Source: Bradyrhizobiaceae bacterium PARB1 (GTDB taxonomy: Bacteria; Pseudomonadota; Alphaproteobacteria; Rhizobiales; Xanthobacteraceae). From it: a DNA stretch of 64,000 nt. The stretch covers positions 1 through 64,000 of the forward strand of contig NKIY01000017.1 in the NCBI GenBank assembly GCA_002256345.1, written 5' to 3'. Below the pieces are notes generated by a model. That model had not been told where the DNA came from. It did no database searches and saw nothing but the letters and a program-made list of their open reading frames with translations. The translations under genes were made by a program, and so were the position numbers. Below, one piece after another: positions 27,239-45,994 of this stretch. Numbering within the stretch: the stretch's first letter is position 1; every line of letters begins with the position of its first letter.

Positions 27239-27263
27239 GACGTGAGCTTTCAGTGAGCGAGGA

Positions 27264-28256: not shown

Positions 28257-28598
28257 GATGATGCCGTTCTGCAAATAACAAATCGAGGTTTGCAGAGGGT
28301 GGGAGAGCGACCGGTTCCAGTCAATGAAATGGGAAACTGTAGTTGGAGGCGCGGCGATACAGGCGTTCTTCCAGAAATGGGCGGCGGAGCGAAACGTTCT
28401 CTGGCCGCCCGGGAGCTACCGTTTGCGACGGAATAATTTTCTGCATGCGGAGATGAAAGCTGCTCCCGATGCGGCGGCGCGGATCGCAAATCTTGCCAAG
28501 CGCCGCTCACCTTTGAAAACACAATCTTCGCGATCTCGCCTAGCGTTTCACCATCACGTCGGCGCATCGGGCGCGACGCATACGGAGCGGGAAAGTCC
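28257..28598. other. Divergent intergenic region between two SsuA-like genes
   Basis: A 342-base gap holding the promoters of both orphan SsuA-like genes. The only clear element is the inverted repeat near its left end. A reading frame on the + strand across 28324-28611 has no ribosome site or recognisable composition and is not called. Confidence 0.6.
28268..28296. promoter_or_regulatory. Inverted repeat upstream of SsuA-like gene, candidate operator
   Basis: Perfect 8-base arms TCTGCAAA (28268-28275) and TTTGCAGA (28289-28296) flank a 13-base spacer, starting 12 bases upstream of the SsuA-like ATG. Position suits a repressor or LysR-type (Cbl/CysB-like) site, or a leader hairpin. The regulator is unknown. 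Confidence 0.45.
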
Positions 28599-29570
28599 AT
28601 GTCAGAGTTGAAGCCGAGGTCGAGACGTATCGTGCTGGCTACCATCGCTGCCACGTTGCTGTTGTCGCAGTTCACCAGCAAGGCGCCGGCGGCGGAACAG
28701 CCGAAGGAAATCCGCATCGGCTTCCAGAAGGCCGGCATCTTCCCGGCGGTGAAGCAACGCGGAACGCTGGAGAAGGTGTTCAAGGCGCGGGGCATCGACG
28801 TCAGATGGGTCGAATTCCAGTTCGGGCCGCCGATCCTGGAGGCCATCAACACCGGCAATGTGGATTTCGGCTATACCGGCGATGCCCCGCCGATCTTTGC
28901 GCAGGCTGCCCGCGCCAATCTGCTTTATGTGGCAGCCGTGCCGTCGATCGGATTCAATCAGGGGATCGTCGTTCCCGACAGTTCTCCGATCAAGACGCTC
29001 AAGGATCTGAAGGGCAAGAAAGTCGGCTTCGGCAAGGGATCGAGCGCGCATAACACGATCATCGCCGCGCTGGAGAAGGCAGGCCTGACCTACGCCGACA
29101 TCACGCCGGTCTATCTCGGCCCCGCCGATGCGGTCGCCGCCTTTGCCGGCGGCAATATCGATGCGTGGTCGATCTGGGATCCCTATCTGTCGCTCGCCGA
29201 GATCAAGGGGGCCCGTGTCGTCGCCTTCTCGAAGGACGTCCAGGAATCCAATTCCTTCTTCCTGGCCAACAAGGATTTTGCCGGCAAGCATGGCGACATC
29301 GTTGCGCTGCTCAACAAGACCTTTGCCGATGAGGGCAAATGGGGCACTGCCAATCGCGCGGAAATCGCGGCGCGCTTGCAGGAGGCGACCGGTGTCGACA
29401 AGGCCGCGACCACCAAGGCGGTGGAGCGCTCCGAATACAATGTGGTCCCGATCAACGAGAAGATAATCGCGACCCAGCAGGAGACGGCCGACCGGTTCTT
29501 CAAGCTCGGGCTGATCCCGAAGCCGGTGCAGGTGAAGGACATCGTCTGGGAGTGGAAACAGGGCTCCTGA
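28599..29570 (+). CDS. SsuA-like aliphatic sulfonate ABC substrate-binding protein (orphan 2)
   Basis: A 323-residue receptor, divergent from the first SsuA-like gene. The signal peptide (IVLATIAATLLLSQFTSKAPA) is followed by EIRIGFQKAGIFPAV, INTGNVDFGYTGDAPP and NIDAWSIWDPYL. It is closer to classical SsuA (YTGDAPP) than its neighbour and likely binds an alkylsulfonate. It has no cognate permease nearby; the next genes encode the MetNIQ transporter. A hairpin lies 14 bases after its stop, so it is probably a single-gene transcript. Confidence 0.89.
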   Translation: MSELKPRSRRIVLATIAATLLLSQFTSKAPAAEQPKEIRIGFQKAGIFPAVKQRGTLEKVFKARGIDVRWVEFQFGPPILEAINTGNVDFGYTGDAPPIFAQAARANLLYVAAVPSIGFNQGIVVPDSSPIKTLKDLKGKKVGFGKGSSAHNTIIAALEKAGLTYADITPVYLGPADAVAAFAGGNIDAWSIWDPYLSLAEIKGARVVAFSKDVQESNSFFLANKDFAGKHGDIVALLNKTFADEGKWGTANRAEIAARLQEATGVDKAATTKAVERSEYNVVPINEKIIATQQETADRFFKLGLIPKPVQVKDIVWEWKQGS

Positions 29571-29583
29571 CCCCGCGTTATGG

Positions 29584-29621
29584 CCGGGAGGCGAATGGTG
29601 CTGTCCAACGTCGTCTCCCGG
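29584..29621 (+). terminator. Possible Rho-independent terminator after ssuA-like gene
   Basis: Arms CCGGGAGGCGA (29584-29594) and TCGTCTCCCGG (29611-29621) pair at 10 of 11 positions and are followed by TAATTTTCT. The loop is 16 bases, longer than usual, so strength is uncertain. Confidence 0.5.
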
Positions 29622-29777
29622 TAATTTTCTGCTCCGCCAGCCCGTTGAAAGCACTGCAATTTTCCGTTTTGTGCAGTGCGGTTGAAATATGTCCCGAAAT
29701 CAGTCATTTACGACCAAACGGCGCCCGCGAACCGCAGGCCGGCCCCGTGCTTCACATCTGCGCAGAAACATCATTCT

Positions 29778-30884
29778 ATGAACGCTCCCGTGTCCAATCC
29801 GGTCGGAGCGCCCGTGCCAGTTATTGAACCGCAGGGGCGTGCCATCATCTCCTTCGATGGCGTCAGCAAGATCTTTCCGCCCAGGAAAGACTCCGCCGAG
29901 GTGAAGGCTTGCGACAATATCGACCTCGTCGTACCCGAAGGCGCCATTGTCGGCGTGATCGGCAAGAGCGGCGCCGGCAAGTCGACGCTCATTCGCCTCA
30001 TCAACGGTCTCGAACTGCCGACCAAGGGCACGGTCACCGTCGATGGCCTCGACATCGGGGCACTCGATGAGCGCGCGCTGCGCCAGGCGCGCCGCTCCAT
30101 CGGCATGATTTTCCAGCACTTCAACCTGCTGTCGTCACGCACAGCCTTCGACAATATCGCGCTGCCGCTGGAGATCGCCGGCACGCCGCGCAAGGCTATC
30201 CCCGGCATCGTCGAGCCGCTGCTGGAAATGGTGGGCCTCGCCGACAAGCGCGATCGTTATCCGGCCGAACTCTCCGGTGGTCAGAAGCAGCGCGTCGGCA
30301 TCGCGCGTGCGCTGGCGACGAAGCCGAAGGTGCTGCTGTCGGACGAAGCCACCTCGGCGCTCGATCCCGAGACCACCGCCCAGATCATCGCGCTGCTCAG
30401 GCAGATCAATGCCGAGCTCAATCTCACCATTCTCTTCATCACGCATGAAATGAGTGTGGTGAAGAAACTCGCCCAGCGCGTCGCCGTGATGGAAGGTGGC
30501 AAGATCATCGAGCAGGGGACCACCTACGAGATCTTCTCGAAGCCCCAGCACGCGACGACAAAACGTTTTGTCGGCGAAGTCACCGGCGGCAATGTGCCGG
30601 ACTGGCTGCAGGCGCGTTTGCTCGCCGATTATGCGCCGGGCCGTCAGGCGGTGATCCGCATCGCCTTCACTGGCGCCGATGCGGACGAGCCCGTGTTGTC
30701 GCGGCTGACGCGCGCTTACGGCGTCGACTTCAACATCATGCATGGGCAGATCGAATATGTCGCCGATCATCCGTTCGGCACGCTGATCGCCTCCGTCGCC
30801 GCCGAGCCCGAGCTGCAGGCGAAGCTGATCGCCGATCTCAGGGCCACCCGCAACACCGTGGAGCATCTCGGCTATGTCGCCTGA
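29778..30884 (+). CDS. metN: Methionine ABC transporter ATP-binding protein MetN
   Basis: The 368-residue ATPase has Walker [11 protein letters not shown]-loop [15 protein letters not shown] (a strong MetN hallmark), signature [15 protein letters not shown], Walker [13 protein letters not shown] and H-loop ITHEMSVV. The last ~75 residues form the NIL domain, which in E. coli MetN binds methionine and shuts the transporter. ATG 29778 is chosen on homology; the frame is open further upstream without MetN-like sequence, and no strong ribosome site is seen. It overlaps metI by 11 bases. Confidence 0.94.
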
Positions 30885-31539
30885 ACTCATCAACATGATC
30901 GCGTCGTCGACGCTGGACACGCTGGTGATGGTGGCGCTGGCCGGCATTTTCGGCACGCTGGCCGGATTGCCGCTCGGTATCTTCCTCGCCACCAGCCGCA
31001 GCGGTGAGTTGTTTCCGGCACCGAACGTCAATCGTCTGCTCGGCCTCGTCGTCAATGCCACGCGCTCGACGCCGTTCATCATTCTCGTCGTCGCCATCGT
31101 GCCACTCACGCGGCTGATCGCCGGCACGTCCATCGGTACCAGTGCCGCCGTCGTGCCGCTGACCATCGCCGCGACGCCGTTCATCGCCCGCGTTATCGAA
31201 GGTGCCATCCGCGAAGTCGATCAGGGCCTCGTCGAGGCCGCGCGCGCCTTCGGCGCCAGCCCTCTGCAGATCGTCTGGAAGGTGCTGTTGCCCGAGGCGA
31301 TGCCGGCAGTGACGCTCGCGCTCACTCTCGCGACTGTCAGCCTGATCGGCTATTCGGCCATGGTCGGCGCCGTCGGCGGCGGCGGCCTCGGCGATCTCGG
31401 TATCCGCTACGGCTATCAGCGCTTCATGCCGGAAGTGATGGCGACGGTGGTCGCCGTGCTGATCTGCCTCGTGCAGGGCGTGCAGAGCCTCGGCGATTTC
31501 ATCTCGCGCCGCCTCGACAAGCGCACCCGGAAATCCTGA
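30874..31539 (+). CDS. metI: Methionine ABC transporter permease MetI
   Basis: The 221-residue membrane protein with five predicted spans has the MetI hallmark [16 protein letters not shown] and the EAA-type loop [20 protein letters not shown]. As a homodimer it forms the channel energised by MetN. It overlaps the metN end and lies 41 bases upstream of metQ, so metNIQ form one operon. Confidence 0.94.
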
Positions 31540-31580
31540 GCGGCAACGCTCACTCTCGTTTCTTCACAATGGAAAACAGT

Positions 31581-32363
31581 ATGTCTCTTCGTCGTCTACT
31601 TCTCTCCGTCGCCGCCTTTGCTGCCTTCACCAGCGCTGCCAGCGCCGAGACCATCAAGGTCGGCGTCACGCCCGGTCCGCATGCCCAGGTGCTGGAAGCC
31701 GCCAAGGCTGTCGCCGCCAAGAAGGGCCTCGACATCCAGATCGTCGAGTTCTCCGACTATGTGGTGCCGAATGCAGCGCTGGAAGCCGGCGATCTGCAGG
31801 CCAATTCGTTCCAGCATCAGCCTTACCTCGACAACCAGGTGGCCGATCGCAAGTACAAGATCGTCTCGGTGGGCAACACCATCAACTTCCCGATGGGCAT
31901 CTATTCGAAGAAGGTGAAGAGCTGGGACGAGGTGAAGACGGGCGCCACGCTGGCGATCCCGAACGATCCGACCAATGGCGGCCGCGTGCTGATCCTGCTG
32001 CGCGACAAGGGCGTCATCAAGCTGAAGGACGGTGTCGGCTTCAAGCCCACGCTGCTCGACATCACCGACAATCCGAAGAAGCTGAAGATCACCGAAGTCG
32101 ATGCCGCGCAGCTGCCGCGCACGCTGCCTGACGTCGATGTCGCCGGGATCAACACCAACTACGCCTCGCAGGCCGGCCTCGATCCGGTGAAGGACGCGAT
32201 CCTGCGCGAGGACCCGAAGGGGCCGTATGCCAACATCATCGCCGTGCGCACCGCCGACAAGGACAAGCCCTGGGTGAAGACGCTGGTGGAGAGCTATCAG
32301 TCGCCGGAAGTGAAGGCGTTCATCGAGGAGAAGTTCAAGGGCTCAGTGCTCGCGACCTGGTAA
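31581..32363 (+). CDS. metQ: Methionine ABC transporter substrate-binding protein MetQ
   Basis: A 260-residue NlpA/MetQ receptor. ATG 31581 is preferred over ATG 31569 because GGA lies seven bases before it. The signal peptide (LLLSVAAFAAFTSAASA) lacks a lipobox Cys. Hallmarks are IKVGVTPGPHAQVLE, NSFQHQPYLDNQ, FPMGIYSKK, IPNDPTNGGRVLILL and GINTNYASQAGL, with the Asn that grips the methionine backbone in the family. It is the last gene of metNIQ. It is closer to classical MetQ than the orphan paralogue at 26426-27238. Confidence 0.94.
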   Translation: MSLRRLLLSVAAFAAFTSAASAETIKVGVTPGPHAQVLEAAKAVAAKKGLDIQIVEFSDYVVPNAALEAGDLQANSFQHQPYLDNQVADRKYKIVSVGNTINFPMGIYSKKVKSWDEVKTGATLAIPNDPTNGGRVLILLRDKGVIKLKDGVGFKPTLLDITDNPKKLKITEVDAAQLPRTLPDVDVAGINTNYASQAGLDPVKDAILREDPKGPYANIIAVRTADKDKPWVKTLVESYQSPEVKAFIEEKFKGSVLATW

Positions 32364-33371: not shown

Positions 33372-33445
33372 GCGGGTATAGCTCAATGGTAGAGCAGCAG
33401 CCTTCCAAGCTGAATACGAGGGTTCGATTCCCTCTACCCGCTCCA
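33372..33445 (+). tRNA. tRNA-Gly (anticodon UCC)
   Basis: Complete cloverleaf. The acceptor arm GCGGGTA (33372-33378) pairs with TACCCGC (33435-33441), the D-arm is GCTC...GAGC, the anticodon loop CTTCCAA reads UCC at positions 34-36 (Gly, GGA codons), and the T-arm is GAGGGTTCGATTCCCTC. Discriminator U and an encoded CCA follow (33442-33445). The anticodon stem ends in a G-A mismatch at its outer pair. It sits between the repeat tract and the sulfur-oxidation genes. Confidence 0.96.
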
Positions 33446-33596: not shown

Positions 33597-34646
33597 ATGC
33601 CAGCCACTCCGGTCATTGCCGGTTTTGCGATCGGCGTCGTTTTCGGTGTCGTCGGCTTGTTGAGTGGCTTCTGTCTCATGAGCAGTCTGCGCGACTGGTG
33701 GACGCGCGGCGATGGCCGGAGGATTCGCAGCTACGCGCTCGCTGTCGCCGTCGCCATTTGCGGAACTCAGCTGATCGCCGGCTATGGCCTGATCGACATC
33801 GCGAAATCGCTGTATCTGCAACCGTCGTTTTCGGGGCCGCTGATTTTCATCGGCGGATTGTTGTTCGGGCTCGGCATGGTGTTGTCGAATGGTTGCGCGT
33901 CCAGGGCCGTGGTGTTGCTGGGGAAGGGGAACCTGCGATCGCTGGCTGTTCTCGCGATCATCGGCGTCACCGCGCAGATGACTTTGAAAGGCCTTCTCGC
34001 GCCGGCACGGCTGGCGATCATGCAATGGACACAGATGACACCGTCGGTGAATTCCGTGCCTGCGCTGTTTGATCGTTTCGGTTTGAATGAAGGGGCCGCC
34101 CGCATCGCTGCCGCGTTGATCGTCGGCGGTGCGCTTTTGGTTTTCGCTCTGGCGCATCGCGAGCTCCGTCGCTCGCCGGGCCAGGTGCTCGCGGGCATTG
34201 CGATGGGTCTGCTGGTGATCGCCGGTTGGCTCGCTACGGGTTGGCTCGGTGCTGACGAGTTCGATCCAATTCAGGTGGCGTCGCTGACATTCATTTCGCC
34301 GGTCGCCGACACCCTGCAATTCATCATGCTGTCGACCGGCATGACGCTGAATTTTGGTATCGCACTGGTCGCCGGCGTTCTAACCGGCAGTTTGCTGACC
34401 GCGCTGTTGACGGGCCGCTTCGAATTCGAGGGATACACGTCTGCGGGCCATACCGGGCGTTCGATGGCAGGCGCGGCGTTGATGGGGATCGGTGGCGCGA
34501 TGGCCTATGGCTGTTCGATCGGCCAGGGATTGACCGGCCTTTCCACGCTCGCATTGCCATCCTTTGTCGCGGTCGCCGGCATTCTTGCCGGTGCTGCATT
34601 GGCGCTTCGCGGGCTGACAGTGCGCGCCGCTTTTGCGGCGCAATAA
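33597..34646 (+). CDS. YeeE/YedE-family permease (thiosulfate/sulfur-compound transport type), copy 1
   Basis: A 349-residue protein with 9-10 membrane spans and two copies of the sulfur-transport domain. ATG 33597 is chosen for its GGAG six bases upstream. Conserved Cys-bearing turns of the family are LLSGFCLMSS, LSNGCASRAV and YGCSIGQG; in thiosulfate permease TsuA such cysteines line the substrate path. It is the first gene of a three-gene + strand group with two exported DsrE-like proteins. Substrate is probably thiosulfate, sulfite or a sulfane-sulfur carrier, inferred from family and setting. Confidence 0.87.
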   Translation: MPATPVIAGFAIGVVFGVVGLLSGFCLMSSLRDWWTRGDGRRIRSYALAVAVAICGTQLIAGYGLIDIAKSLYLQPSFSGPLIFIGGLLFGLGMVLSNGCASRAVVLLGKGNLRSLAVLAIIGVTAQMTLKGLLAPARLAIMQWTQMTPSVNSVPALFDRFGLNEGAARIAAALIVGGALLVFALAHRELRRSPGQVLAGIAMGLLVIAGWLATGWLGADEFDPIQVASLTFISPVADTLQFIMLSTGMTLNFGIALVAGVLTGSLLTALLTGRFEFEGYTSAGHTGRSMAGAALMGIGGAMAYGCSIGQGLTGLSTLALPSFVAVAGILAGAALALRGLTVRAAFAAQ

Positions 34647-34733
34647 CAGCGTCCAGCCGATTTCTTTAGTTCGATTGCGCCTGCGCCTGACGGTTGCTAA
34701 TCAATCTCTGGATCGGCAGAGGTTTGACGCGCG

Positions 34734-35207
34734 ATGAACAGGCGAGGCTACATTCAAGCACTGTCGGTCCTCGTCTTCGCCTGGGCTGCGATAGGACCGC
34801 TCGCTGCGCAGACGCGCCCGGTGAAGCCGGATGCTGCACCCGACAAGCCTTTCGCCGAACATTTTATCGCATTGCAGCTCTCGGATGCCGATGCGAAAAA
34901 AGAACGGCTCGTTCTCAGCGTCGCCAGCAATGTCCTGAAGGCCTACGGGCCCGACAAGGTCGCTGTGGAAGTCGTGACGTTCGGCCCGGGCATCGATCTC
35001 TTGCGGGCCACAAACGAGCATCGCGTGCTGGTCGATAGTCTGGTGAGCCAGGGGGTGCGCTTTAACTTTTGCGGCAATACGCTGGACAGTATCGAGCGCG
35101 AGACCGGCAAGCGCCCGACCATGAATCCTCATGCGCATGAAGTGCAGGTTGGCGTCGGCCATATGCTGGATCTGGCAGAGCGCGGTTTTACGATTGTACG
35201 TCCTTGA
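34734..35207 (+). CDS. Exported DsrE-family protein, copy 1
   Basis: A 157-residue protein with a signal peptide (YIQALSVLVFAWAAIGPLAA) and a DsrE/DsrF-like alpha/beta domain (about 45-155). Core features are VEVVTFGPGIDLL and FNFCGNTLDSIER; the Cys of CGNT is the only Cys in the mature protein and lies where DsrE/TusD-type proteins carry sulfur. Classical DsrE proteins are cytoplasmic, so the signal peptide is notable. The neighbouring gene starts 15 bases after its stop and encodes a paralogue. Confidence 0.85.
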   Translation: MNRRGYIQALSVLVFAWAAIGPLAAQTRPVKPDAAPDKPFAEHFIALQLSDADAKKERLVLSVASNVLKAYGPDKVAVEVVTFGPGIDLLRATNEHRVLVDSLVSQGVRFNFCGNTLDSIERETGKRPTMNPHAHEVQVGVGHMLDLAERGFTIVRP

Positions 35208-35221
35208 AAAGGAGCTTTGAG

Positions 35222-35671
35222 ATGCGATCGATATTGGGAGCTATTTCCGGCATCATTCTGTTTGCGCTGACCTTGTCGGCAGGCCATGCCGCGGACAAGG
35301 AGCACCGCGTCGCCATTCAGGTCAATCAGAACGATCCGGCGGTGATGAATCTGGCGCTCAACAATGCCACCAATGTCATGGAGTTCTACAAGGCGAAGGG
35401 CGAGGTCGTTCAGGTCGAAATCGTCACATTCGGTCCGGGCCTGCACATGCTGCGTGACGATACGTCGCCGGTGAAGGATCGCATCAAGCAGATCGTCGAT
35501 GCGAGCTTTCCCTCCAATGTCAAATTCATCGCTTGCGGCAATACCAAGGAAGGGATGGAGAAGCGTGAGGGCAAGCCGGTCAGCATGATCTCCGATGCCA
35601 CGGTGGTGCCATCGGGCGCGGTGCGGCTGATCGAGTTGCAGGAAGCCGGCTGGAGCTATCTCAAGCCGTGA
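35222..35671 (+). CDS. Exported DsrE-family protein, copy 2
   Basis: A 149-residue paralogue of the preceding gene. ATG 35222 has AGGAG seven bases upstream and a signal peptide (GIILFALTLSAGHA). Shared core: VEIVTFGPGLHML and IACGNTKEGMEK, again with a single mature Cys in CGNT, then VPSGAVRLIELQEAGW. It may carry persulfide sulfur in the periplasm between the Sox proteins and the YeeE/YedE permeases; direct evidence is lacking. It is convergent, with a 6-base gap, with the second YeeE/YedE gene. Confidence 0.85.
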   Translation: MRSILGAISGIILFALTLSAGHAADKEHRVAIQVNQNDPAVMNLALNNATNVMEFYKAKGEVVQVEIVTFGPGLHMLRDDTSPVKDRIKQIVDASFPSNVKFIACGNTKEGMEKREGKPVSMISDATVVPSGAVRLIELQEAGWSYLKP

Positions 35672-35677
35672 TGGTGC

Positions 35678-36787
35678 TTACTTGGACGGCGGCACCTTGC
35701 GCGCCAGCAGCATCCAGTTGCGCTGGATGATCTCGCGCGGCGATCCGTCGACAAGAATCGCGATGCCGATCCGTGCGCCGAGCATGATGCCGATGACGGC
35801 AATCGGCCAGGACAGCGCCAGCAGCGATCCGGCGCTGATGCCCTGACCGATGGTGCAACCGCCGGCCAGAATGCCGCCAACTCCCATCAGGCACGCGCCG
35901 AGCAAATGACGGCGCATTTCATGATCGTCGTCGAATGCTTCCCACCGCAGCTCGGCCGCAAACCATGCGGCGGCCCACGCACCTGCGATGACGCCGAACA
36001 CGCTGCCGACGCCAAAATCCGCGAAATTCGTGACGTTCAACACGCCGGCATAGAGCGCCTTTCCAATGGTCGAGACGAAGGTCAGGCTTTGCGGACGCGG
36101 CGGTCCTGCGAAGTCATCATTCAATCCCACCGTGGCGATCCAGCCAGCAACGATCAGCAGACCGAGCGTCACGCCGGCCGTCAGCAGGCGCGGCGCACGG
36201 CGCAGGCGTTTGTCGGTCAGCGCCAGCCAGCACAGGCTGCCGCCGATCAGCACGGCAAGGGGCAGGCGTAGGTCATGACCGGTTGCCTGCGTGAGCCAGG
36301 AGGCAAAGTCGGCGCGGGTACTATCGGGCATCTGGATCGACAAGGGCTCGATCACGCCGATGCGTAGATCGGCGAACAGGCCGCGGAGCGTCGCATAGGC
36401 GGTTGCGCCCAGCACGAGGATGACGACGAGGCTTTTGAGATCGCCGGTGCCAAACCGGACGAGCGAGCCAAAGCCGCAGGTGCCGACCATGGCCATGCCC
36501 ATGCCGAACATCAGGCTGCCGATGACGATGGCGACAAGGGGAAGGGCGGTCGGAATGAATGTGGTGAGTTCGGGCGCCAGAAAACCGGTGAGCACCAGAG
36601 CCTGGGTGCCGAGCATGGCAATGCCTAGCGCTAATCCAAACACCTTGAGACGGCGACCATCGCCGCCCATCAGCGCGTCCTCGATCGCACCGAACGTGCA
36701 AAGGCGTGCGCGTTGCACGGCGAAGCCCGCAACACCGCCAATGGCAAAGCCAGCCAGCGCAGATAACCAGGCAGACATATTCTGCAT
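35678..36787 (-). CDS. YeeE/YedE-family permease, copy 2
   Basis: The 369-residue membrane protein has two sulfur-transport domains and about ten spans. Cys turns are QRARLCTFGA, VGTCGFGSLV and GGCTIGQG, matching the positions in copy 1 but with different flanking residues, so the two copies may handle different species. It is the last gene of the minus-strand set soxS-soxR-yedE, 69 bases after the regulator, suggesting control by the persulfide sensor. Confidence 0.89.
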   Translation of the reverse strand: MQNMSAWLSALAGFAIGGVAGFAVQRARLCTFGAIEDALMGGDGRRLKVFGLALGIAMLGTQALVLTGFLAPELTTFIPTALPLVAIVIGSLMFGMGMAMVGTCGFGSLVRFGTGDLKSLVVILVLGATAYATLRGLFADLRIGVIEPLSIQMPDSTRADFASWLTQATGHDLRLPLAVLIGGSLCWLALTDKRLRRAPRLLTAGVTLGLLIVAGWIATVGLNDDFAGPPRPQSLTFVSTIGKALYAGVLNVTNFADFGVGSVFGVIAGAWAAAWFAAELRWEAFDDDHEMRRHLLGACLMGVGGILAGGCTIGQGISAGSLLALSWPIAVIGIMLGARIGIAILVDGSPREIIQRNWMLLARKVPPSK

Positions 36788-36856: not shown

Positions 36857-37234
36857 TTATTTTTTCTTTGTCGGCGCCGGTGTGGCGCAGAAGATATCGT
36901 AGATGACCGAGATAACGCGTCGCACATCGTCGTTGGCGAGGCTGTAATAGATCGTCTTGCCGTCGCGGCGCGTCTCGACCATGCCGTCATAGCGCAAGCG
37001 CGCGAGCTGTTGCGACACCGCGGACTGCCGCAGCGACAGGATGTTTTCGAGTTCGGACACCGAGCGTTCACGCTCGGCCAGCAGGCACAGCAGCAGCAGG
37101 CGGTTCTCGTGCGAGATCGCTTTCAGGAAATTGCTGGCCTTGCGGGCCTTGCGCATCAACTGGTCGAGTTCGGGGGAATATTCCGCCCCGTCCCGCAATT
37201 CGTCTTCGAGTTCGGATGAGATGATGGAAGCCAT
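36857..37234 (-). CDS. soxR: ArsR-family persulfide-responsive repressor (SoxR/BigR/SqrR type)
   Basis: A 125-residue winged-helix protein. The recognition region is LSLRQSAVSQQLARL (67-81) and the wing follows at about 83-97 (RRDGKTIYYSL). It has just two Cys, C50 in LLLLCLLAE and C116 in DIFCATP, 66 residues apart; this equals the spacing of the sensor pair in BigR and SqrR, which form a tetrasulfide with reactive sulfur and then release DNA. It most likely represses the sox and yedE genes until thiosulfate or sulfide is present. Confidence 0.9.
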   Translation of the reverse strand: MASIISSELEDELRDGAEYSPELDQLMRKARKASNFLKAISHENRLLLLCLLAERERSVSELENILSLRQSAVSQQLARLRYDGMVETRRDGKTIYYSLANDDVRRVISVIYDIFCATPAPTKKK

Positions 37235-37266: not shown

Positions 37267-37665
37267 TCAGGAACGATTGGCGTTGGGCTGTGAGGTCGTC
37301 AGTCTGGCGGCATACTTTCCGAGCAAGCCCCAGAAGGATTCGTCATTCATGTAACCGGTGATGCGGCCGATCTCGTGGCCATCATCGACGATTACAAAGG
37401 TCGGCGTGAAACGCACCGGCGATGCCAGCGTGAAGCCCGGCGCCTTGTCGCGATCCATGTTGATGCGGCGCAGCGGAAGCACCTTGGCTTCGTCGGTCTT
37501 GTCGTAACTGGGGGCGATCTCGCGATTCCATCGCGCGCACCAGACGCAGCCGTCGCGCTCGAACATCACGAGCTCGGACGCCGCGGCGCTGCCGGACGCC
37601 AGCGCGGCGGTCATCATCAGCAAGGCTGCGATCAGCGAAGTTTTCAGCGCCAGTCTTGACATCAT
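37267..37665 (-). CDS. soxS: SoxS-like periplasmic thioredoxin-fold protein
   Basis: A protein of 132 residues or one fewer (adjacent ATGs at 37665 and 37662) with a signal peptide ending SGSAAAS and a thioredoxin domain whose active site is CVWC (in FERDGCVWCARW). The cis-Pro region VRFTPTFVIVDDG is present. In Paracoccus, SoxS is a periplasmic thiol-disulfide protein that keeps SoxYZ active. It starts 49 bases from soxV on the opposite strand and lies 32 bases upstream of soxR, with which it is probably co-transcribed. Confidence 0.82.
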   Translation of the reverse strand: MMSRLALKTSLIAALLMMTAALASGSAAASELVMFERDGCVWCARWNREIAPSYDKTDEAKVLPLRRINMDRDKAPGFTLASPVRFTPTFVIVDDGHEIGRITGYMNDESFWGLLGKYAARLTTSQPNANRS

Positions 37666-37674
37666 GTGATACAT

Positions 37675-37692
37675 ATACACGAATTCGAATAT
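37675..37692. promoter_or_regulatory. Candidate SoxR/BigR operator between soxS and soxV
   Basis: An AT-rich imperfect palindrome, ATACACGAATTCGAATAT, matches its own reverse complement at 14 of 18 positions. It is centred in the 49-base gap between the divergent soxS and soxV starts, where one bound repressor could block both promoters. BigR-type regulators are known to prefer AT-rich palindromes that overlap promoters. Confidence 0.5.
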
Positions 37693-37714: not shown

Positions 37715-38458
37715 GTGCTGTCATCGATCTCATTGCTTGGAGCACTCGGCGCAGGTCTGTTGTCGTTCCTGTCGCCATGCGTGCTGCCGCTGGTGCCGCC
37801 CTATCTCTGCTTTCTCGCGGGCGTCAGCCTGGACGAACTCGACGATCGTGGCGGGCAGGACGGCTGGCGGCCGAATATGCGGGTCGTGGTGCTGTCCTTT
37901 GCATTCGTACTGGGCTTCGCCACGGTCTTCGTTGCGCTCGGCGCGTCGGCATCGCTGATCGGCAAGGCCATCACGGCGCATTTCGAAACGCTTGGCATCA
38001 TTGCGGGTGCGCTGATCGTCGTGCTCGGACTGCATTTTCTTGGCGTCTTCCGCATCGGATTGCTGTTTCGGGAGGCGCGCTTTCAGGCCGCGCGCAAGCC
38101 GGCCGGTTTTCTCGGCGCCTATGTCGTGGGGCTGGCTTTTGCCTTTGGCTGGACACCATGTGTGGGGCCTGTGCTGGCGGCGATCCTGATGGTGGCAGGC
38201 GCCGAGAGCGCCCCCGTGCAGGGCGCGCTGCTGCTTGCGGCCTATGCGCTCGGGATTGGTATCCCTTTCATGCTGGCCTCGCTGTTTTCAGGGCCTTTCA
38301 TCCGCCTGATGATGCGGCTGCGCCGGCACATGCCCGTGATCGAGAAGGTGATTGGTGGCGGGCTTGTCGTGACCGGCATTCTGTTTTTGACTGGCGGCAT
38401 GCCGCGGATTTCAGGCTGGATGCTGGAAACCTTTCCAGCGATCGGGACCCTTGGGTGA
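37715..38458 (+). CDS. soxV: SoxV, CcdA-like thiol-reductant membrane transporter
   Basis: This 247-residue CcdA/DsbD-type protein has six membrane spans. The redox Cys pair sits in SPCVLPLVPPYL (first span) and GWTPCVGPVLA (fourth span). It carries electrons from cytoplasmic thioredoxin across the membrane to SoxW. Start GTG 37715 is chosen because hydrophobic CcdA-like sequence begins there. The stop lies 19 bases before the soxW start. Confidence 0.9.
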   Translation: MLSSISLLGALGAGLLSFLSPCVLPLVPPYLCFLAGVSLDELDDRGGQDGWRPNMRVVVLSFAFVLGFATVFVALGASASLIGKAITAHFETLGIIAGALIVVLGLHFLGVFRIGLLFREARFQAARKPAGFLGAYVVGLAFAFGWTPCVGPVLAAILMVAGAESAPVQGALLLAAYALGIGIPFMLASLFSGPFIRLMMRLRRHMPVIEKVIGGGLVVTGILFLTGGMPRISGWMLETFPAIGTLG

Positions 38459-38477
38459 TGCGGATCGGGAGGATCGG

Positions 38478-39056
38478 ATGAGCGGTGGAATGACGAGGCG
38501 GCATGCGCTTGCGGCGATCGGCATCGGCATAACCGCGCTGCGGAGCGCGCCGGCATCGGCGAAGGCGACGCTGGGTGACGACGGGCTCTACCAGATGGAC
38601 TGGTATCTCGAGAGTTTTCTCGATCTCGGCGAGGATCTCGCAGGCGCGACAGCCAAGGGCAAACGCTTCGCCATCATGTGGGGCCTCAAGGGCTGTCCCT
38701 CATGCAAGCGTCTGCACGAAAGCTATATGACCGATCCGAAAATCGAGACCTACATCCGCGACAATTTCGAGATCCTGCATCTCAATCATATCGGCTCCCG
38801 CGAGGTCACCGATTTCGACGGTCGCAAGCGCGGCGAGAAGGCCTTTGGCGAAGCTTATGGCATTCGCTTTACGCCGACGATCCAGTTCTTCCCGGAGACA
38901 GCAGCGGGTCTCGCTGCGAAGAGCGGGCAGGCGCGTGAAGTCGCCCGCATGCCCGGATTGCTGGAGCCCACGGAATTTCTCGCGATGTTCCGTTATGTCC
39001 GTGAAAAGGGCTATGAAACGGCGCCATTTCCGGAGTGGCTGAAGAAACAGGCCTGA
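38478..39056 (+). CDS. soxW: SoxW, periplasmic thioredoxin
   Basis: From ATG 38478 (GGAGG five bases upstream) this is a 192-residue protein with a Tat-type signal (TRRHALAAIGIGITALRSAPASA) and a thioredoxin-like domain with active site KGCPSCKRLH and cis-Pro region IRFTPTIQFF. It accepts electrons from SoxV and is thought to reduce Sox proteins in the periplasm. It is the end of the short + strand unit soxVW. Confidence 0.88.
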   Translation: MSGGMTRRHALAAIGIGITALRSAPASAKATLGDDGLYQMDWYLESFLDLGEDLAGATAKGKRFAIMWGLKGCPSCKRLHESYMTDPKIETYIRDNFEILHLNHIGSREVTDFDGRKRGEKAFGEAYGIRFTPTIQFFPETAAGLAAKSGQAREVARMPGLLEPTEFLAMFRYVREKGYETAPFPEWLKKQA

Positions 39057-39244: not shown

Positions 39245-39745
39245 TCAGAAGTCGAGCTTGTCCTGGATCGCGGCAATGCCGGCCTTGGCACATGCTTCAT
39301 CTGCATCGCCGCCGGGCGCGCCGGACACGCCGATGGCGCCGAGCGTCGCGCCGCCGCTTTCGATCATGAGGCCGCCACCGATGATCACGACGTTCGGCAG
39401 ATTGCGCAGGCCTGCCTGCATCATGCCGGGCTGGCTGATCGCGTTGAGTTCCGTGGTGCTGTTGCGGAAAGTCGCTGAAGTCCATGCCTTGCCGGTGGCG
39501 GTCGGCGGTGTGTGAGGTCCGGCAAAGCGGTCGCGCAGCAGCACTTGCGGCGTGCCGAAGCGATCGACCACAGCGACGGCGACCTGATAGCCGCGCTTCT
39601 GGCAATCCTTTAGTGCGGCCCGCGCCGCATCGAGCGCCAGCTCAAGTCCGAGCGACTTGTAGCTGACCACGGCTTCTTCCGCGCGCGCCATCGATGATGC
39701 GGCGATCGACAGCGCAATGGCAGCCACCAGGGTTTTCATTGTCAT
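39245..39745 (-). CDS. Exported GlcG/HbpS-family protein in the sox cluster
   Basis: A 166-residue protein with a signal peptide (LVAAIALSIAASSMARA) and a GlcG/HbpS (PduO-C-like) domain, showing VAVVDRFGTPQVLLRDRFAG and a Gly-rich VVIIGGGLMIESGGATLGAIGVSG. Members of this fold bind haem or cobalamin-like ligands; the function here is unknown. It is the last gene of soxA-soxX-glcG-like, 21 bases after soxX, so it belongs to the thiosulfate-oxidation transcript. Confidence 0.82.
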   Translation of the reverse strand: MTMKTLVAAIALSIAASSMARAEEAVVSYKSLGLELALDAARAALKDCQKRGYQVAVAVVDRFGTPQVLLRDRFAGPHTPPTATGKAWTSATFRNSTTELNAISQPGMMQAGLRNLPNVVIIGGGLMIESGGATLGAIGVSGAPGGDADEACAKAGIAAIQDKLDF

Positions 39746-40407: not shown

Positions 40408-41232
40408 TTATCGCTTGATCGACGGCACGTTGAGTTCGCCGGCCGATGCTTGCTTCTGGAGGAATACGGTGAGGGCGGTGATGGCGTCGGAGCCATATTC
40501 CGGCACGGGCCAGCGCTGCTGACGGAAGCAATCCCACAGACGATGCTGCATGGTGCGCAGCGCGCCTTGCGAGACGCGATAGGTCGGCCAGCCGCCCATG
40601 GTTTCCTGCGCGGGTTTGCCGGGCTTGGAAAAGTTCGGCAGGCCCTGCAGACGGATGCGCTTGCCTTCGTCGGCGTGGCAGGTGGCGCAGGAGAAATCGT
40701 TGACGCCGCCGCGGCGATAGAACAGCGCCTCGCCGACGGCGAGCATTTCCTGCTCCTTGGGATGGGCGAGCGGGATATCGATCTTCATGCCATTCGACTT
40801 GTTGGCAATGAAAGCGACAAGATCTTCCATGTCGGACGCCCGGCCCGGCCCGGAGAAGCGCCGTGCGATCACGTCCTTGGTATCGAGGCCCTGGACGTTT
40901 TGCATGCACCACAGCAGCCGCTGCTCGAGATCCATGACTTTGTCGGCATCGGCGAAGTAGCGTGGAAGTTTTGCGAAGGCGCCTTCGAGTTTCCCTGCGC
41001 CAAGACCGAGATCGCATGTTTCCAACGAAACATTCTTGGTGCCGCGAGCCTCGCTCCACAACGCTTCGCCGCGATCGACGGCCAGGTAACCCGGATTGGA
41101 CATCGGGTCGGAGATCATCTCGCGATAGCGTTCGATCTCCTTCTCACTGGCGTCCTGAGCGCTGGCGCCAAGCCCCATCGCGCAGAATGCCAGAACGGCC
41201 GCTGCCGCAGACCAAATCGCGGTCTTCCTCAT
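40408..41232 (-). CDS. soxA: SoxA, catalytic subunit of L-cysteine S-thiosulfotransferase (monohaem type)
   Basis: From ATG 41232 (GGAGGGG just upstream) SoxA has 274 residues and a signal peptide ending MGLGASAQ. Only one CxxCH haem site, CATCH, is present, in the C-terminal domain. In the N-terminal domain the first haem site of dihaem SoxA is replaced by two single Cys (ETCDLG and LLWCMQN), probably a disulfide. [10 protein letters not shown] carries the catalytic Cys ligand. It is the first gene of soxA-soxX-glcG-like and is divergent from soxY. Confidence 0.93.
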
Positions 41233-41284
41233 CTGTCCCCTCCCACACCGCCGTCTCTGCGGCATTCGTGCATTTCAGATCTTT

Positions 41285-41395: not shown

Positions 41396-41860
41396 ATGGT
41401 TCTGAAGTCGGCCGAAATGACCCGTCGCGATACGCTGGCAATGGCCGCGATTGCAGGGCTTGCCGCAGTCCTCGCCCCCCGAATGTCGTTTGCCGACGAA
41501 AAGGCCGTCGCCGAAGAAATCAAGAAACTCTACGGCGACAAGAAGTTCGAGAGCGGCAAGATCAAGCTCGATGTCCCCGAAATCGCCGAGAACGGACTCG
41601 TGGTGCCGATCAACGTCGATGTCGAGAGCCCGATGACCGACGCCGACCATGTGAAGTCGGTGCATGTGTTTGCCGAAGGCAACCCGCTGCCCGGCGTTGT
41701 GAGCTATAAGTTCACGCCGGCTTGCGGCAAGGCGTCGGCCTCGACCCGCATGCGTCTCGCCGAAACCCAGAACATCGTCTGCATCGCCGAAATGTCCAAC
41801 GGCAAGCTCTATATGGCGAAAGCCAATGTGAAGGTCACGATCGGCGGCTGCGGCGGCTAG
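41396..41860 (+). CDS. soxY: SoxY, sulfur-carrier subunit
   Basis: A 154-residue protein with AGGAGG before ATG 41396 and a Tat signal (TRRDTLAMAAIAGLAAVLAP). The Ig-like domain ends in the swinging-arm sequence TIGGCGG, whose Cys carries the thiosulfate-derived sulfur through SoxXA, SoxB and SoxCD. SoxZ has no signal peptide and is exported with SoxY. soxZ follows 48 bases downstream. Confidence 0.95.
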   Translation: MVLKSAEMTRRDTLAMAAIAGLAAVLAPRMSFADEKAVAEEIKKLYGDKKFESGKIKLDVPEIAENGLVVPINVDVESPMTDADHVKSVHVFAEGNPLPGVVSYKFTPACGKASASTRMRLAETQNIVCIAEMSNGKLYMAKANVKVTIGGCGG

Positions 41861-41908
41861 TCCCGCAAGGCCGTTCGAACAACCCATTTATCAGGCGAGG
41901 ACTTTCCC

Positions 41909-42238
41909 ATGGCAACCAAACCCACCCCGCGCGTTCGTGTCCCGTCCCAGGCCAAGGCCGGCGAGATGATCGAAATCAAGACGCTGATCTCTCACGAAAT
42001 GGAATCGGGCCAGCGCAAGGATGCGTCCGGCAAGGTCGTGCCGCGCAAGATCATCAACAAGTTCACCGCGGCCTTCAACGGCAAGACGGTGTTCGAGGCC
42101 GACTGGAATCCTGCCATCTCGGCCAATCCCTATCAGTCGTTTTTCTACAAGGCTTCGGAGTCCGGCGAATTCACCTTCACTTGGAAGGATGACGACGGCT
42201 CCGACTATGTCGCCACCAACAAGCTGACCGTGGCCTGA
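41909..42238 (+). CDS. soxZ: SoxZ, partner of sulfur carrier SoxY
   Basis: The 109-residue beta-sandwich protein without signal peptide matches SoxZ: PRVRVPSQAKAGEMIEIKTL at the start, EMESGQRKD, IINKFTAAFNGKTVF and FTFTWKDDDGS. It forms the SoxYZ heterodimer that travels by the SoxY Tat signal. It sits between soxY and soxB on the main + strand transcript. Confidence 0.95.
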   Translation: MATKPTPRVRVPSQAKAGEMIEIKTLISHEMESGQRKDASGKVVPRKIINKFTAAFNGKTVFEADWNPAISANPYQSFFYKASESGEFTFTWKDDDGSDYVATNKLTVA

Positions 42239-42288: not shown

Positions 42289-43986
42289 ATGATATCGAGG
42301 CGGGATTTCCTGCAAGCGACGGCGGCTGCGTCGGCGCTAACGATCGGTGGCGGCCTTGGCCCATTGGGCCGCGCCGCAGCACAGCAGCGCCTGACCCAGG
42401 CCGATATCCTGCGGTTCGATCCGCTGGGCACTGTGACGATCCTCTATGTCGCTGATACGCATGCGCAGCTGATGCCGCTGCATTTCCGCGAGCCTTCGGT
42501 GAATCTCGGCGTGGGCGAGGCCAAAGGCAAGCCGCCGCATCTGACCGATGCGGAATTTCGGAAGTACTTCAATATCGCCGCGGGCTCGGCAGATGCCTTT
42601 GCACTGACTGCCGATGACTTCGCGTCGCTCGCCAGGAATTACGGCCGGATGGGCGGCATGGATCGCATTGCCACGCTGATCGGTGCGGTCCGCGCCGAGC
42701 GCGGCGAGGACAAGGTGTTGCTGCTCGATGGCGGCGATAGCTGGCAGGGCAGCTGGACGTCGTTGCAGACCAAGGCTCAGGACATGGTCGATGTCATGTC
42801 CGCGCTGAAGCTCGATGCCATGGTCGGGCATTGGGAATTCACTTACGGCGCCGAGCGCGTCAAGCAGATCGCCGATAGCGCGCCCTTTGCATTTCTCGCG
42901 CAGAACATTCGCGACAATGAATGGCAGGAACCTGTCTTCGAAGCGCGAAAAATGTTTGAGCGTGGCGGCGCAAAGATCGCCGTCATCGGCCAGGCGCTGC
43001 CGCGTACGGCAGTTGCCAATCCGCGCTGGATGTTTCCGAACTGGGAGTTCGGCATTCGCGAGGAAGACATCCAGAAGCAGGTCGATGAAGCGCGCGCGGC
43101 AGGGGCGTCCATCGTCGTGCTGCTCTCGCATAACGGCTTCGATGTCGATCACAAGCTGGCCGGCCGCGTGAAGGGGCTCGACGTCATCCTCACCGCGCAT
43201 ACCCATGACGCGATGCCAGGCCTGATCAAGGTCGGCAACACCGTCCTGGTCGCGACGGGATCGCACGGCAAATTCGTCTCGCGCCTCGATATCGAGGTGA
43301 AGGACAAGAAGGTCTCCGATATCCGCTTCAAGCTGATGCCGGTGTTCGCCGATGCGATCAAACCCGATCCGGCGATGACGGCGCTGATCGACAAGGTGAG
43401 GGCGCCCTTCGCCAAGGATCTGGCGCGCGAGATCGGCAAGACGGATTCGCTGCTGTATCGCCGCGGTAATTTCAACGGCACCTTCGACGATCTGATCTGC
43501 AACGCCATGATGGCGGAGCGCGACGCCGAGATCGTGCTGTCGCCGGGATTCCGCTGGGGCGGCACGCTGATTCCAGGTGATGCCATCACCTGGGAGCAGA
43601 TCACCAACGCCACCGCGATCACCTATCCGAACTGCTATCGCAACCAGATGACGGGCGCACAGATCAAGGAAGTGCTCGAGGACGTGGCTGACAATATTTT
43701 CCATCCCGATCCGTATTTCCAGGGCGGCGGCGACATGGTCCGCATGGGCGGCATGGGCTATGCGATCGACGTCTCCAAGCCGATGGGCTCGCGCATCTCC
43801 GCGATGACACATCTGAAATCCGGCAAGCCGATTGAGGCGAGCAAGACCTACACGGTCTCCGGCTGGGCCAGCGTCAACGAGAACACGCAGGGGCCGCCGA
43901 TCTGGGACGTGGTGGCCGCGCATGTGTCGAAGGTCTCGACCGTGAAGATCGAACCGAACACGGCGGTCAAGGTGACCGGCGCCTGA
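42289..43986 (+). CDS. soxB: SoxB, SoxYZ-thiosulfonate sulfohydrolase
   Basis: A 565-residue Tat-exported dimanganese hydrolase (signal SRRDFLQATAAASALTIGGG) of the 5'-nucleotidase superfamily. Metal-site motifs in order are VADTHAQLMP, LDGGDSW, VGHWEFTYG, LSHNGFD and TAHTHDAMP. The C-terminal domain (about 385-560) holds the SoxY-arm channel. It releases sulfate from SoxY-bound thiosulfonate. Length is normal for the family. Confidence 0.96.
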   Translation: MISRRDFLQATAAASALTIGGGLGPLGRAAAQQRLTQADILRFDPLGTVTILYVADTHAQLMPLHFREPSVNLGVGEAKGKPPHLTDAEFRKYFNIAAGSADAFALTADDFASLARNYGRMGGMDRIATLIGAVRAERGEDKVLLLDGGDSWQGSWTSLQTKAQDMVDVMSALKLDAMVGHWEFTYGAERVKQIADSAPFAFLAQNIRDNEWQEPVFEARKMFERGGAKIAVIGQALPRTAVANPRWMFPNWEFGIREEDIQKQVDEARAAGASIVVLLSHNGFDVDHKLAGRVKGLDVILTAHTHDAMPGLIKVGNTVLVATGSHGKFVSRLDIEVKDKKVSDIRFKLMPVFADAIKPDPAMTALIDKVRAPFAKDLAREIGKTDSLLYRRGNFNGTFDDLICNAMMAERDAEIVLSPGFRWGGTLIPGDAITWEQITNATAITYPNCYRNQMTGAQIKEVLEDVADNIFHPDPYFQGGGDMVRMGGMGYAIDVSKPMGSRISAMTHLKSGKPIEASKTYTVSGWASVNENTQGPPIWDVVAAHVSKVSTVKIEPNTAVKVTGA

Positions 43987-44028
43987 TCCAGACGCCATCG
44001 ACGTGCAGAGACAAGGGAAGCTTGCCGC

Positions 44029-45309
44029 ATGACCAATCAGACTTCAGGGGAAACGCTCAGCCGCCGCCGCTTTCTCGGTGCCGCCGGTCTGGCCGGTGCG
44101 GGCAGTGCGCTCGCCACCATCCCCGCGCTTGCAGGCGAGACGGCGAAATCCGAAGCGCTGATCACCGACGTACAGGACTGGCAGCGCTATCTCGGCGACG
44201 GCGTCGATAAACATCCTTACGGCCTGCCGTCGAAATTCGAGAAGAATGTGATCCGGCGCGATGTGCCCTGGCTCACGGCATCGGCAGAATCATCAGTCAA
44301 TTTCACGCCGCTGCATGAACTCGACGGCATCATCACGCCGTCCGGCCTTTGCTTCGAGCGTCATCATGGCGGCGTCGCCGAGATCAATCCGGCGGATCAT
44401 CGGCTGATGATCAACGGGCTGGTGGACAAGCCGCTGGTCTTCACCATGGACGACATCAAGCGGATGCCGCGTGTCAACAAGGTGTATTTTCTGGAATGTG
44501 CCGCCAATTCCGGCATGGAATGGCGCGGCAGCCAGCTCAATGGCTGCCAGTTCACGCACGGCATGATTCACAATGTGATGTATACCGGCGTGCCGCTGAA
44601 AGTGCTACTCGACGAGGCTGGACTGAAGCCGAACGCCAAATGGCTGATGCTGGAGGGCGCTGATTCCGCGGGGATGAACCGGTCGCTGCCGATCGAGAAA
44701 GCGCTGAACGATGTCATGCTCGCTTTCGCCATGAATGGCGAGGCGCTGCGGCCGGAGCAGGGCTATCCGCTTCGTGCGGTCATTCCCGGTTGGGAAGGCA
44801 ATCTCTGGGTCAAGTGGCTGCGCCGCATCGAGGCCGGCGATCAGCCATGGCAGACGCGCGAGGAAACGTCGAAATATACCGACCTGCTCGCCGATGGCAC
44901 CTCGCGAAAGCATACTTTCGTGATGGACGCGAAATCCGTCGTCACCAATCCGTCGCCACAGGCGCCTTTGAAGCATAAAGGCCGCAATGTTCTCAGTGGT
45001 CTCGCCTGGTCCGGCCGGGGCACTGTCAAGCGAGTCGATGTTTCGCTGGATGGCGGGCGCAACTGGCAGACGGTGCGGATCGATGGTCCGGTCTTCGATA
45101 AGTCCGTGGTGCGCTTCTATGTCGATTTCGAATGGAACGGGCAGGAGCTGATGATCCAGTCGCGCGCCATCGACTCTACCGGCTACGTGCAGCCGTCGAA
45201 GGACGAGCTGCGCAAGGTGCGCGGTGTCAATTCGATCTACCACAATAACGGCATTCAGACCTGGCTGGTGCGCTCAAGCGGGGAGACTGAAAATGTCGAA
45301 ATCGGCTAG
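44029..45309 (+). CDS. soxC: SoxC, molybdenum subunit of sulfane dehydrogenase
   Basis: A 426-residue sulfite-oxidase-family protein with a Tat signal ([20 protein letters not shown]). The Moco-binding domain includes [14 protein letters not shown] with the molybdenum-ligand Cys; the C-terminal dimerisation domain is at about 290-420. With SoxD it removes six electrons from the sulfane sulfur on SoxY, so thiosulfate can be oxidised fully to sulfate without sulfur globules. It overlaps soxD by 17 bases. Confidence 0.95.
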
Positions 45310-45994
45310 TGCCCTGGCGCTTGCGCTGGCAGCGGTCCTGCTCGGCGGCATTGTGGGCGAAGGCACCGCACAGCAGGTCGCCAATCGCGAGTTGGCAAAA
45401 CCGGCCGTGAAGCTCGGGCTCGGACGTCCCGCGACGGCCGATGAAATTGCCGCATGGGACACCGACGTACGTCCCGATGGCCGTGGTCTTCCGGTCGGCA
45501 AAGGGACGGTGAAGCAGGGCGACGAACTGTTTCAGGAAAAGTGCGCATCCTGTCACGGCGAATTCGGACAAGGCGTCGGCCGATGGCCGGTTCTCGCAGG
45601 TGGTGCAGGCACCCTGAAGGCGGATCGGCCCGACAAGACCGTCGGATCATTCTGGCCGGATGCGTCCACCCTGTTCGATTACATCAAGCGCGCGATGCCC
45701 TATGGCAACGCACAGTCTCTCACCAATGACGAAGTCTACGCGCTGACAGCTTATGTGCTCAGCATGAACGATGTCATCAAAGATGAGAACTTCGAGCTGA
45801 ATGACAAGAATTTCACGTCGATCAAGATGCCGAATGCATCAGCCTTCTTCGAGGATGATCGCGAGACATCCGAGAAGCAGTTCTGGAACAAGAATCCCTG
45901 CATGAAGGATTGCCGGCCGGCGCCGAAGGTGACGGGACGTGCGATGGCGATCGACGTGACGCCCGATGGAAAATCGGGACCCAAGGTCGAGTAA
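45293..45994 (+). CDS. soxD: SoxD, cytochrome c subunit of sulfane dehydrogenase (short form)
   Basis: From ATG 45293 (GGGGAG upstream, inside soxC) it has 233 residues and a signal peptide ending GEGTAQ. One haem site, [11 protein letters not shown], and [17 protein letters not shown] match the N-terminal half of SoxD. Paracoccus SoxD is a dihaem protein of nearly 400 residues; here the second haem domain is missing and the sequence ends after [13 protein letters not shown] separate cytochrome c gene begins 56 bases downstream and may replace it. Confidence 0.92.

Follow-up and report, generated by a model that had tools for sequence, protein, structure and literature searches.

The adjacent dsrE_A and dsrE_B genes of Bradyrhizobiaceae bacterium PARB1 encode two putative periplasmic acceptors of sulfane sulfur that may belong to the Sox thiosulfate-oxidation system, a reading to which we assign a probability of about 45%. 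Both genes lie within a stretch of 64,000 nucleotides from contig NKIY01000017.1 (the window). The case for them is sequence-based and comprises the DsrE fold, the position of a single cysteine, signal-like N-termini, and an association with Sox that is both statistical and physical. Because the fold and the key cysteine are combined with a place in a sox cluster and with the company of Sox in many Proteobacteria, the two proteins (A and B) probably handle sulfur as an overlooked component of this system.

Tandem DsrE-fold genes in a complete sox cluster

The window contains a complete Sox set, with SoxXA, SoxYZ, SoxB, and SoxCD all found by Pfam and NCBIfam searches (Table 1). The order runs soxT_a-dsrE_A-dsrE_B, then soxT_b-soxR-soxS on the opposite strand, followed by soxV, soxW, an HbpS/GlcG-like gene, soxXA, and soxYZBCD; 87 bases separate soxT_a from dsrE_A on the same strand. 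Both permeases contain a Sulf_transp domain and were identified as SoxT by their conserved cysteines and their place in the sox cluster. Three cysteines of SoxT_a share alignment columns with cysteines of Escherichia coli TsuA, and the SoxT_b cysteines were aligned as well. SoxT_b is SoxT1-like by gene order (soxT-soxR-soxS), SoxY scored over the cut-off of the NCBIfam model SoxY_true_GGCGG, and SoxR gave a BigR-like NCBIfam match under cut-off. The names soxB, soxC, and soxD follow gene order and the usual Sox anatomy. A tRNA-Gly (TCC) gene (33372-33445) lies immediately upstream of soxT_a and is itself preceded by MetNIQ-type and NMT1/SsuA-like uptake genes (26426-32363), where the binding proteins are labeled NlpA lipoprotein and NMT1. 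A promoter scan returned 0 promoter-like sites, and 8 terminator-like sites were found against 4.0 expected, none of them between dsrE_B and soxT_b.

Table 1. Features of the PARB1 locus and of the ECF sigma/anti-sigma::DsrE gene pairs in other genomes
Feature	Position	Strand	Description or best match
soxT_a	33597..34646	+	YeeE/YedE-type permease; PF04143 E 3e-61
dsrE_A	34734..35207	+	DsrE-fold protein, predicted exported, 157 aa; lone Cys113 in CGNT
dsrE_B	35222..35671	+	DsrE-fold protein, predicted exported, 149 aa; lone Cys105 in CGNT
soxT_b	35678..36787	-	YeeE/YedE-type permease; PF04143 E 2e-53
soxR	36857..37234	-	ArsR-type repressor, two cysteines; HTH_5 E 3e-12
soxS	37267..37680	-	Exported thioredoxin-like; Thioredoxin_2 E 2e-7
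soxV	37715..38458	+	CcdA/DsbD-type membrane protein; DsbD_TM E 4e-19
soxW	38451..39056	+	Exported thioredoxin-like; Thioredoxin_2 E 7e-17
HbpS/GlcG-like gene	39245..39745	-	Exported protein; PF03928 E 1e-31
soxX	after soxA, end at 39767		Cytochrom_C E 1e-7
soxA	40408..41265	-	SoxA-TsdA_cyt-c E 3e-35
soxY, soxZ	41396..42238	+	SoxY E 3e-39; SoxZ E 1e-33
soxB, soxC, soxD	42289..45994	+	5_nucleotid_C, Oxidored_molyb/Mo-co_dimer, and Cytochrom_C domains, in order
ECF sigma, anti-sigma::DsrE	L143:9725-11015	-	
ECF sigma, anti-sigma::DsrE	L138:9252-9965	-	
ECF sigma, anti-sigma::DsrE	L151:8352-9640	+	

Predicted structures of A and B both adopt the DsrE fold. B scored over the Pfam cut-off for PF02635 (25.4 bits vs. 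22.7) and is the sole such match in the PARB1 genome; A matched no Pfam family at E 0.01 and is thus a fold-level relative and paralog of B (E 3e-14 between them), not a PF02635 member by Pfam. Each precursor has one cysteine, and MAFFT placed both CGNT cysteines in the column of TusD Cys78. This equivalence draws on the MAFFT alignment and the common fold, as hhalign found no significant match between the family B profile and the one TusD sequence compared. Among 119 homologs, the cysteine is kept in 118/118 distinct sequences spanning the site, and 84/119 precursors have one cysteine. Export was scored by a crude test for a hydrophobic stretch, a basic residue before it, and an A-x-A-like site from the most favorable ATG. 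Signal-like N-termini were the rule, with 104/109 homologs having an ATG start passing this test, which selects the ATG favoring a hydrophobic start. Controls (redundant loci included) gave 5/51 for SoxR, 0/60 for SoxZ, 51/57 for SoxY, and 1/3 for MetN; the test was less sensitive for SoxB (25/63) and SoxC (14/32). For dsrE_B, the ATG at 35222 behind AGGAG is preferable to the TTG at 35204 used in the original prediction. These results bear out that prediction's description of tandem exported DsrE-fold proteins, each with a single CGNT cysteine, between two SoxT/YeeE genes beside sox, and neither of the outcomes it named as fatal, a cytoplasmic location or a non-conserved cysteine, is what the homologs indicate.

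The closest known family is the MTH1491-like branch of the DsrE/DsrF-like proteins (PF02635), which resembles A and B in its fold, its invariant cysteine, and its small single domain. That branch is without characterized function; A and B differ from it in being exported, and A in falling below Pfam detection. With TusBCD/DsrEFH they share the fold, the TusD cysteine position, and the tandem paralogs, but A and B are periplasmic by prediction, form two genes instead of three cytoplasmic subunits, and have no adjoining TusA or DsrC. On another contig, PARB1 also encodes a third exported paralog (G000:C11:72613-73053; L004:1495-2025) with CEAT replacing CGNT. An exported TlpA/thioredoxin-like gene (L004:817-1470) lies close to it, and no sox gene was found in the 19.9-kb stretch around it. 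The genome further holds a second soxB-like gene, 51% identical (G000:C14:45600-47258). A scan of viral contigs detected no relative, and a plasmid search gave 11 records, all below 60% identity.

Co-occurrence with soxB

Exported DsrE genes and soxB were counted in two genome samples. The class sample comprised 289 Alphaproteobacteria genomes (DsrE profile A2, E 1e-5; soxB, E 1e-60); exported DsrE was detected in 21 genomes, soxB in 28, and both in 17, giving soxB in 17/21 DsrE-positive and 11/268 DsrE-negative genomes. With the PARB1 genome removed, the corresponding values were 16/20 and 11/268 (Fisher p 8e-16). This table undercounts the family, since direct reading found a homolog beside sox genes in three genomes scored as DsrE-negative (G101, G132, and G164); it was kept as drawn. 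The phylum sample of 397 Pseudomonadota genomes (DsrE profile A3) had exported DsrE in 58, soxB in 73, and both in 46, that is, soxB in 46/58 DsrE-positive vs. 27/339 DsrE-negative genomes, although the two samples overlap, are phylogenetically non-independent, and were searched with different DsrE profiles. When counted by genus, soxB was present in 31/36 DsrE-positive and 20/195 DsrE-negative genera (p 6e-20). Outside Alphaproteobacteria, all 19 DsrE-positive genomes have soxB, and 7 soxB-positive genomes are without DsrE.

The association has exceptions in both directions. Exported DsrE occurs without soxB at threshold in 12/58 DsrE-positive genomes of the phylum sample and 4/21 of the class sample; together with the PARB1 paralog away from sox genes, these indicate that the family is not exclusive to Sox. 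Eight of the 12 come from one rhizobial-family genus (g267) and are weak matches. Genomes of this genus that lack soxB (G377 type; loci L177-L179) encode a divergent form of exported DsrE whose N-terminus, MRRRDMFRAV, is twin-arginine-like. Conversely, 27/73 soxB-positive genomes of the phylum sample have no detected exported DsrE, which is therefore not indispensable. A link between DsrE and the loss of SoxCD would be expected if DsrE carried sulfur onward for further oxidation. DsrE was found in 7/7 soxC-negative and 10/21 soxC-positive genomes of the class sample (p 0.02), but in 14/19 and 32/54, respectively, of the phylum sample (p 0.41), with a soxC threshold that may take in sulfite dehydrogenase relatives. 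The proposal that DsrE replaces SoxCD as a general rule was rejected because the effect was gone in the larger sample.

Gene neighborhoods and the SoxT permeases

Among 39 named loci, classified by our own gene labels, the exported DsrE gene is beside soxT in a soxT-R-S-V locus in 24, directly behind soxB in 9, in both settings in 1, and in neither in 5. All but one of the 24 SoxT-type loci have soxT_a, dsrE_A, and soxT_b; the remaining one is a contig fragment with soxT_b. The nine loci behind soxB come from Methylobacterium, a Bradyrhizobiaceae genome, Porticoccaceae, and other Gammaproteobacteria. In Thiothrix eikelboomii, the DsrE gene stands between soxT_a and soxB, and G101 has soxB, dsrE, and soxT in tandem. 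Three further regions from the Bradyrhizobiaceae family, encountered in random reading, have the order soxC-D-X-Y-Z-A-B-dsrE_A, one of them with dsrE_B. Among the neighborhoods sampled, a core sox gene is present in only 7/20 taken from the 23 matches that the class sample gave beyond the window, and in only 8/20 taken from matches outside the class. dsrE_B accompanies dsrE_A in 13/23 SoxT-type named loci, and four other loci (L045, L079, L080, and L081) are ordered soxB-A-B. An obligate pair was considered and rejected, as 10/23 SoxT-type loci have no B, and A is missing from L051, which has a B-like gene. The HbpS/GlcG-like gene is a repeat neighbor of exported DsrE genes (also L045 and L079-L081), standing directly behind the soxB-A-B order in L045, L079, and L081.

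A quick tree of 108 domains, built on few columns and rooted at the midpoint, placed A in a 38-row group with support of 99. The outer branches of this group are soxB-adjacent (L137, gammaproteobacterial sequences, Methylobacterium, and L045/L079), and the SoxT-adjacent Afipia/Tardiphaga group is nested inside it with modest support (SH-aLRT 86-88). B falls in a 19-row group (support 96) containing both soxB-adjacent and SoxT-adjacent members, and SoxT adjacency also arose elsewhere (L092, L114, and L139). The constant companion of exported DsrE is thus the Sox core, and SoxT adjacency looks secondary, a derived state on this tree. PF04143 permeases were present in 27/28 of the soxB-positive genomes examined, with or without exported DsrE, and the presence of a permease is thus not discriminating. 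Both observations led us to reject the description of A and B as a permease-specific pair. The original prediction had proposed checking how often permease, exported DsrE, and sox occur together, and had made the permease the defined partner; the tie to sox was borne out physically and phylogenetically, whereas the permease did not discriminate and at least one further context exists besides SoxT adjacency.

A membrane protein with a C-terminal domain of the exported DsrE family is encoded by G509, G542, and G698, all of them non-alphaproteobacterial genomes. The protein is anti-sigma-like, with a weakly zf-HC2-like N-terminus and one membrane stretch. An ECF sigma gene precedes the fusion gene in 3/3 cases (Pfam Sigma70_r4_2, E 3e-17 and 6e-17 in two; L138 by eye). 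In L143, the sigma/anti-sigma pair is inside a sox cluster, flanked by soxY and a second soxZY-soxT set; at L151 and L138, the pair adjoins an exported DsrE gene that is encoded separately. Full-length matches to the fusion protein were confined to these 3/397 genomes; many other matches cover its anti-sigma half alone or its DsrE half alone. The fusion, found once within a sox cluster, favors a role in sensing.

Possible routes for sulfane sulfur

We infer that Cys113 of A and Cys105 of B would take up sulfane sulfur, the likeliest donor being the persulfide that remains on SoxY once SoxB has acted, and would hold it as a persulfide on the CGNT cysteine. The proteins could then serve SoxYZ as a side branch or buffer, with the acceptor set by the neighborhood. 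In PARB1, the SoxT permease beside SoxR is probably the outlet and would signal to this repressor how much sulfane sulfur is present; in other genomes the outlet may be a periplasmic thioredoxin (SoxW) or a membrane anti-sigma factor with a DsrE domain of its own. Bulk import for oxidation is unlikely because SoxCD is present, no cytoplasmic DsrE was detected in the PARB1 genome at Pfam sensitivity (a search that also misses A), and the sole TusA match is distant, on contig C1, with the window on C23. Given this, and the signaling role, not mass import, ascribed by Li et al. to SoxT in complete Sox systems (excerpts of PMC11582611), SoxT-SoxR signaling is the likelier outlet than assimilation. 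The original prediction had A and B form a periplasmic relay handing sulfur to the YeeE permeases for assimilation. The position of soxT_a 87 bases upstream of dsrE_A, an arrangement kept in 23/39 named loci where one contig carries both genes, accords with such a relay, as do YTD clusters, which link YeeE with cytoplasmic DsrE (excerpts of PMC13047784 and PMC13293266). The nesting of SoxT adjacency among soxB-adjacent relatives, the nine named loci directly behind soxB, and the lone TusA on another contig, with nothing tying the pair to assimilation genes, make it very unlikely, and the proposed link to assimilation was not upheld.

Signaling could also be the whole function, with periplasmic sulfane sulfur regulating sox through SoxT_b/SoxR or an ECF sigma/anti-sigma pair and no metabolic flux. 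The gene order soxT-DsrE-DsrE-soxT-soxR-soxS fits this explanation, as does the anti-sigma-like protein with a C-terminal DsrE domain encoded after ECF sigma genes, one of them within a sox cluster; precedents are SoxT1B, the signal unit for SoxR in Hyphomicrobium (excerpts of PMC11582611), and an ECF26 sigma factor of Sinorhizobium that responds to thiosulfate or taurine (excerpts of PMC3511301). We regard it as unlikely, as many homologs follow soxB with neither soxR nor soxT close by, and the fusion form is rare (3/397 genomes). Alternatively, A and B might maintain SoxYZ by stripping excess or misplaced sulfur from SoxY with SoxS, SoxV, or SoxW, keeping the carrier active. A gene for a SoxW-like periplasmic thioredoxin adjoins the exported DsrE gene in three loci of the class sample (L094, L097, and L100), the window cluster itself encodes SoxS, SoxV, and SoxW, and SoxS is said to prevent SoxYZ inactivation (excerpts of PMC10451225). 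The single cysteine of the exported proteins (84/119 precursors) speaks against such a role. To our knowledge, DsrE proteins are sulfur transferases and not reductases, and we judge the maintenance role unlikely. The proteins might instead relay no sulfur and bind or scavenge sulfite, a metal, or another thiol-reactive ligand, as a detoxification alongside Sox. Their nearest solved relatives (1L1S and 2PD2) are of uncharacterized function and homologs also occur in genomes without soxB, yet the conserved cysteine at the TusD relay position renders this explanation very unlikely.

The original prediction knew of no described system with this arrangement, and one precedent qualifies that claim. 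In two Sulfitobacter type strains, orf2 between soxB and soxC is annotated as a "DsrE family protein" (excerpts of PMC11034169); by annotation and place it is probably the same kind of gene. Its authors noted it as unknown and called for its study, and the excerpts contain no comment on its export. The claim otherwise stands within the literature searched, in which no description of a periplasmic DsrE was found; subscription journals were mostly beyond reach, so an earlier mention is possible. The SoxT1A/SoxT1B modules of Hyphomicrobium denitrificans likewise group SoxR and SoxS with YeeE-type permeases in a sox region, but the sulfur presenters proposed for that organism are SoxS and a periplasmic DsbA-like protein, and its DsrE3C is cytoplasmic (excerpts of PMC11582611); in the PARB1 locus, exported DsrE proteins take that place. 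YTD clusters (YeeE, TusA, and DsrE-like) share a YeeE-type gene beside DsrE-type genes (excerpts of PMC13047784 and PMC13293266), whereas the window locus falls outside their definition, being without TusA and having exported DsrE proteins.

Returning to A and B as acceptors of Sox sulfane sulfur, a broader and more tentative proposal is that exported single-domain DsrE proteins are an unrecognized Sox accessory across Pseudomonadota, a periplasmic counterpart of TusD/DsrE. They might take sulfane sulfur from SoxYZ and determine whether it is oxidized by SoxCD, passes through SoxT, or serves in signaling, and in some lineages the domain, mounted on a transmembrane anti-sigma factor, might sense periplasmic sulfane sulfur on behalf of an ECF sigma factor. 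We know of DsrE/TusD chemistry only from the cytoplasm, and an exported DsrE would move it into the periplasm. The exit of sulfane sulfur from SoxYZ and the sensing of external sulfur by regulators have been called poorly understood (excerpts of PMC11582611). A conserved sulfur-transferase fold, exported and found together with soxB in many genera, would be a directly testable candidate for that exit.
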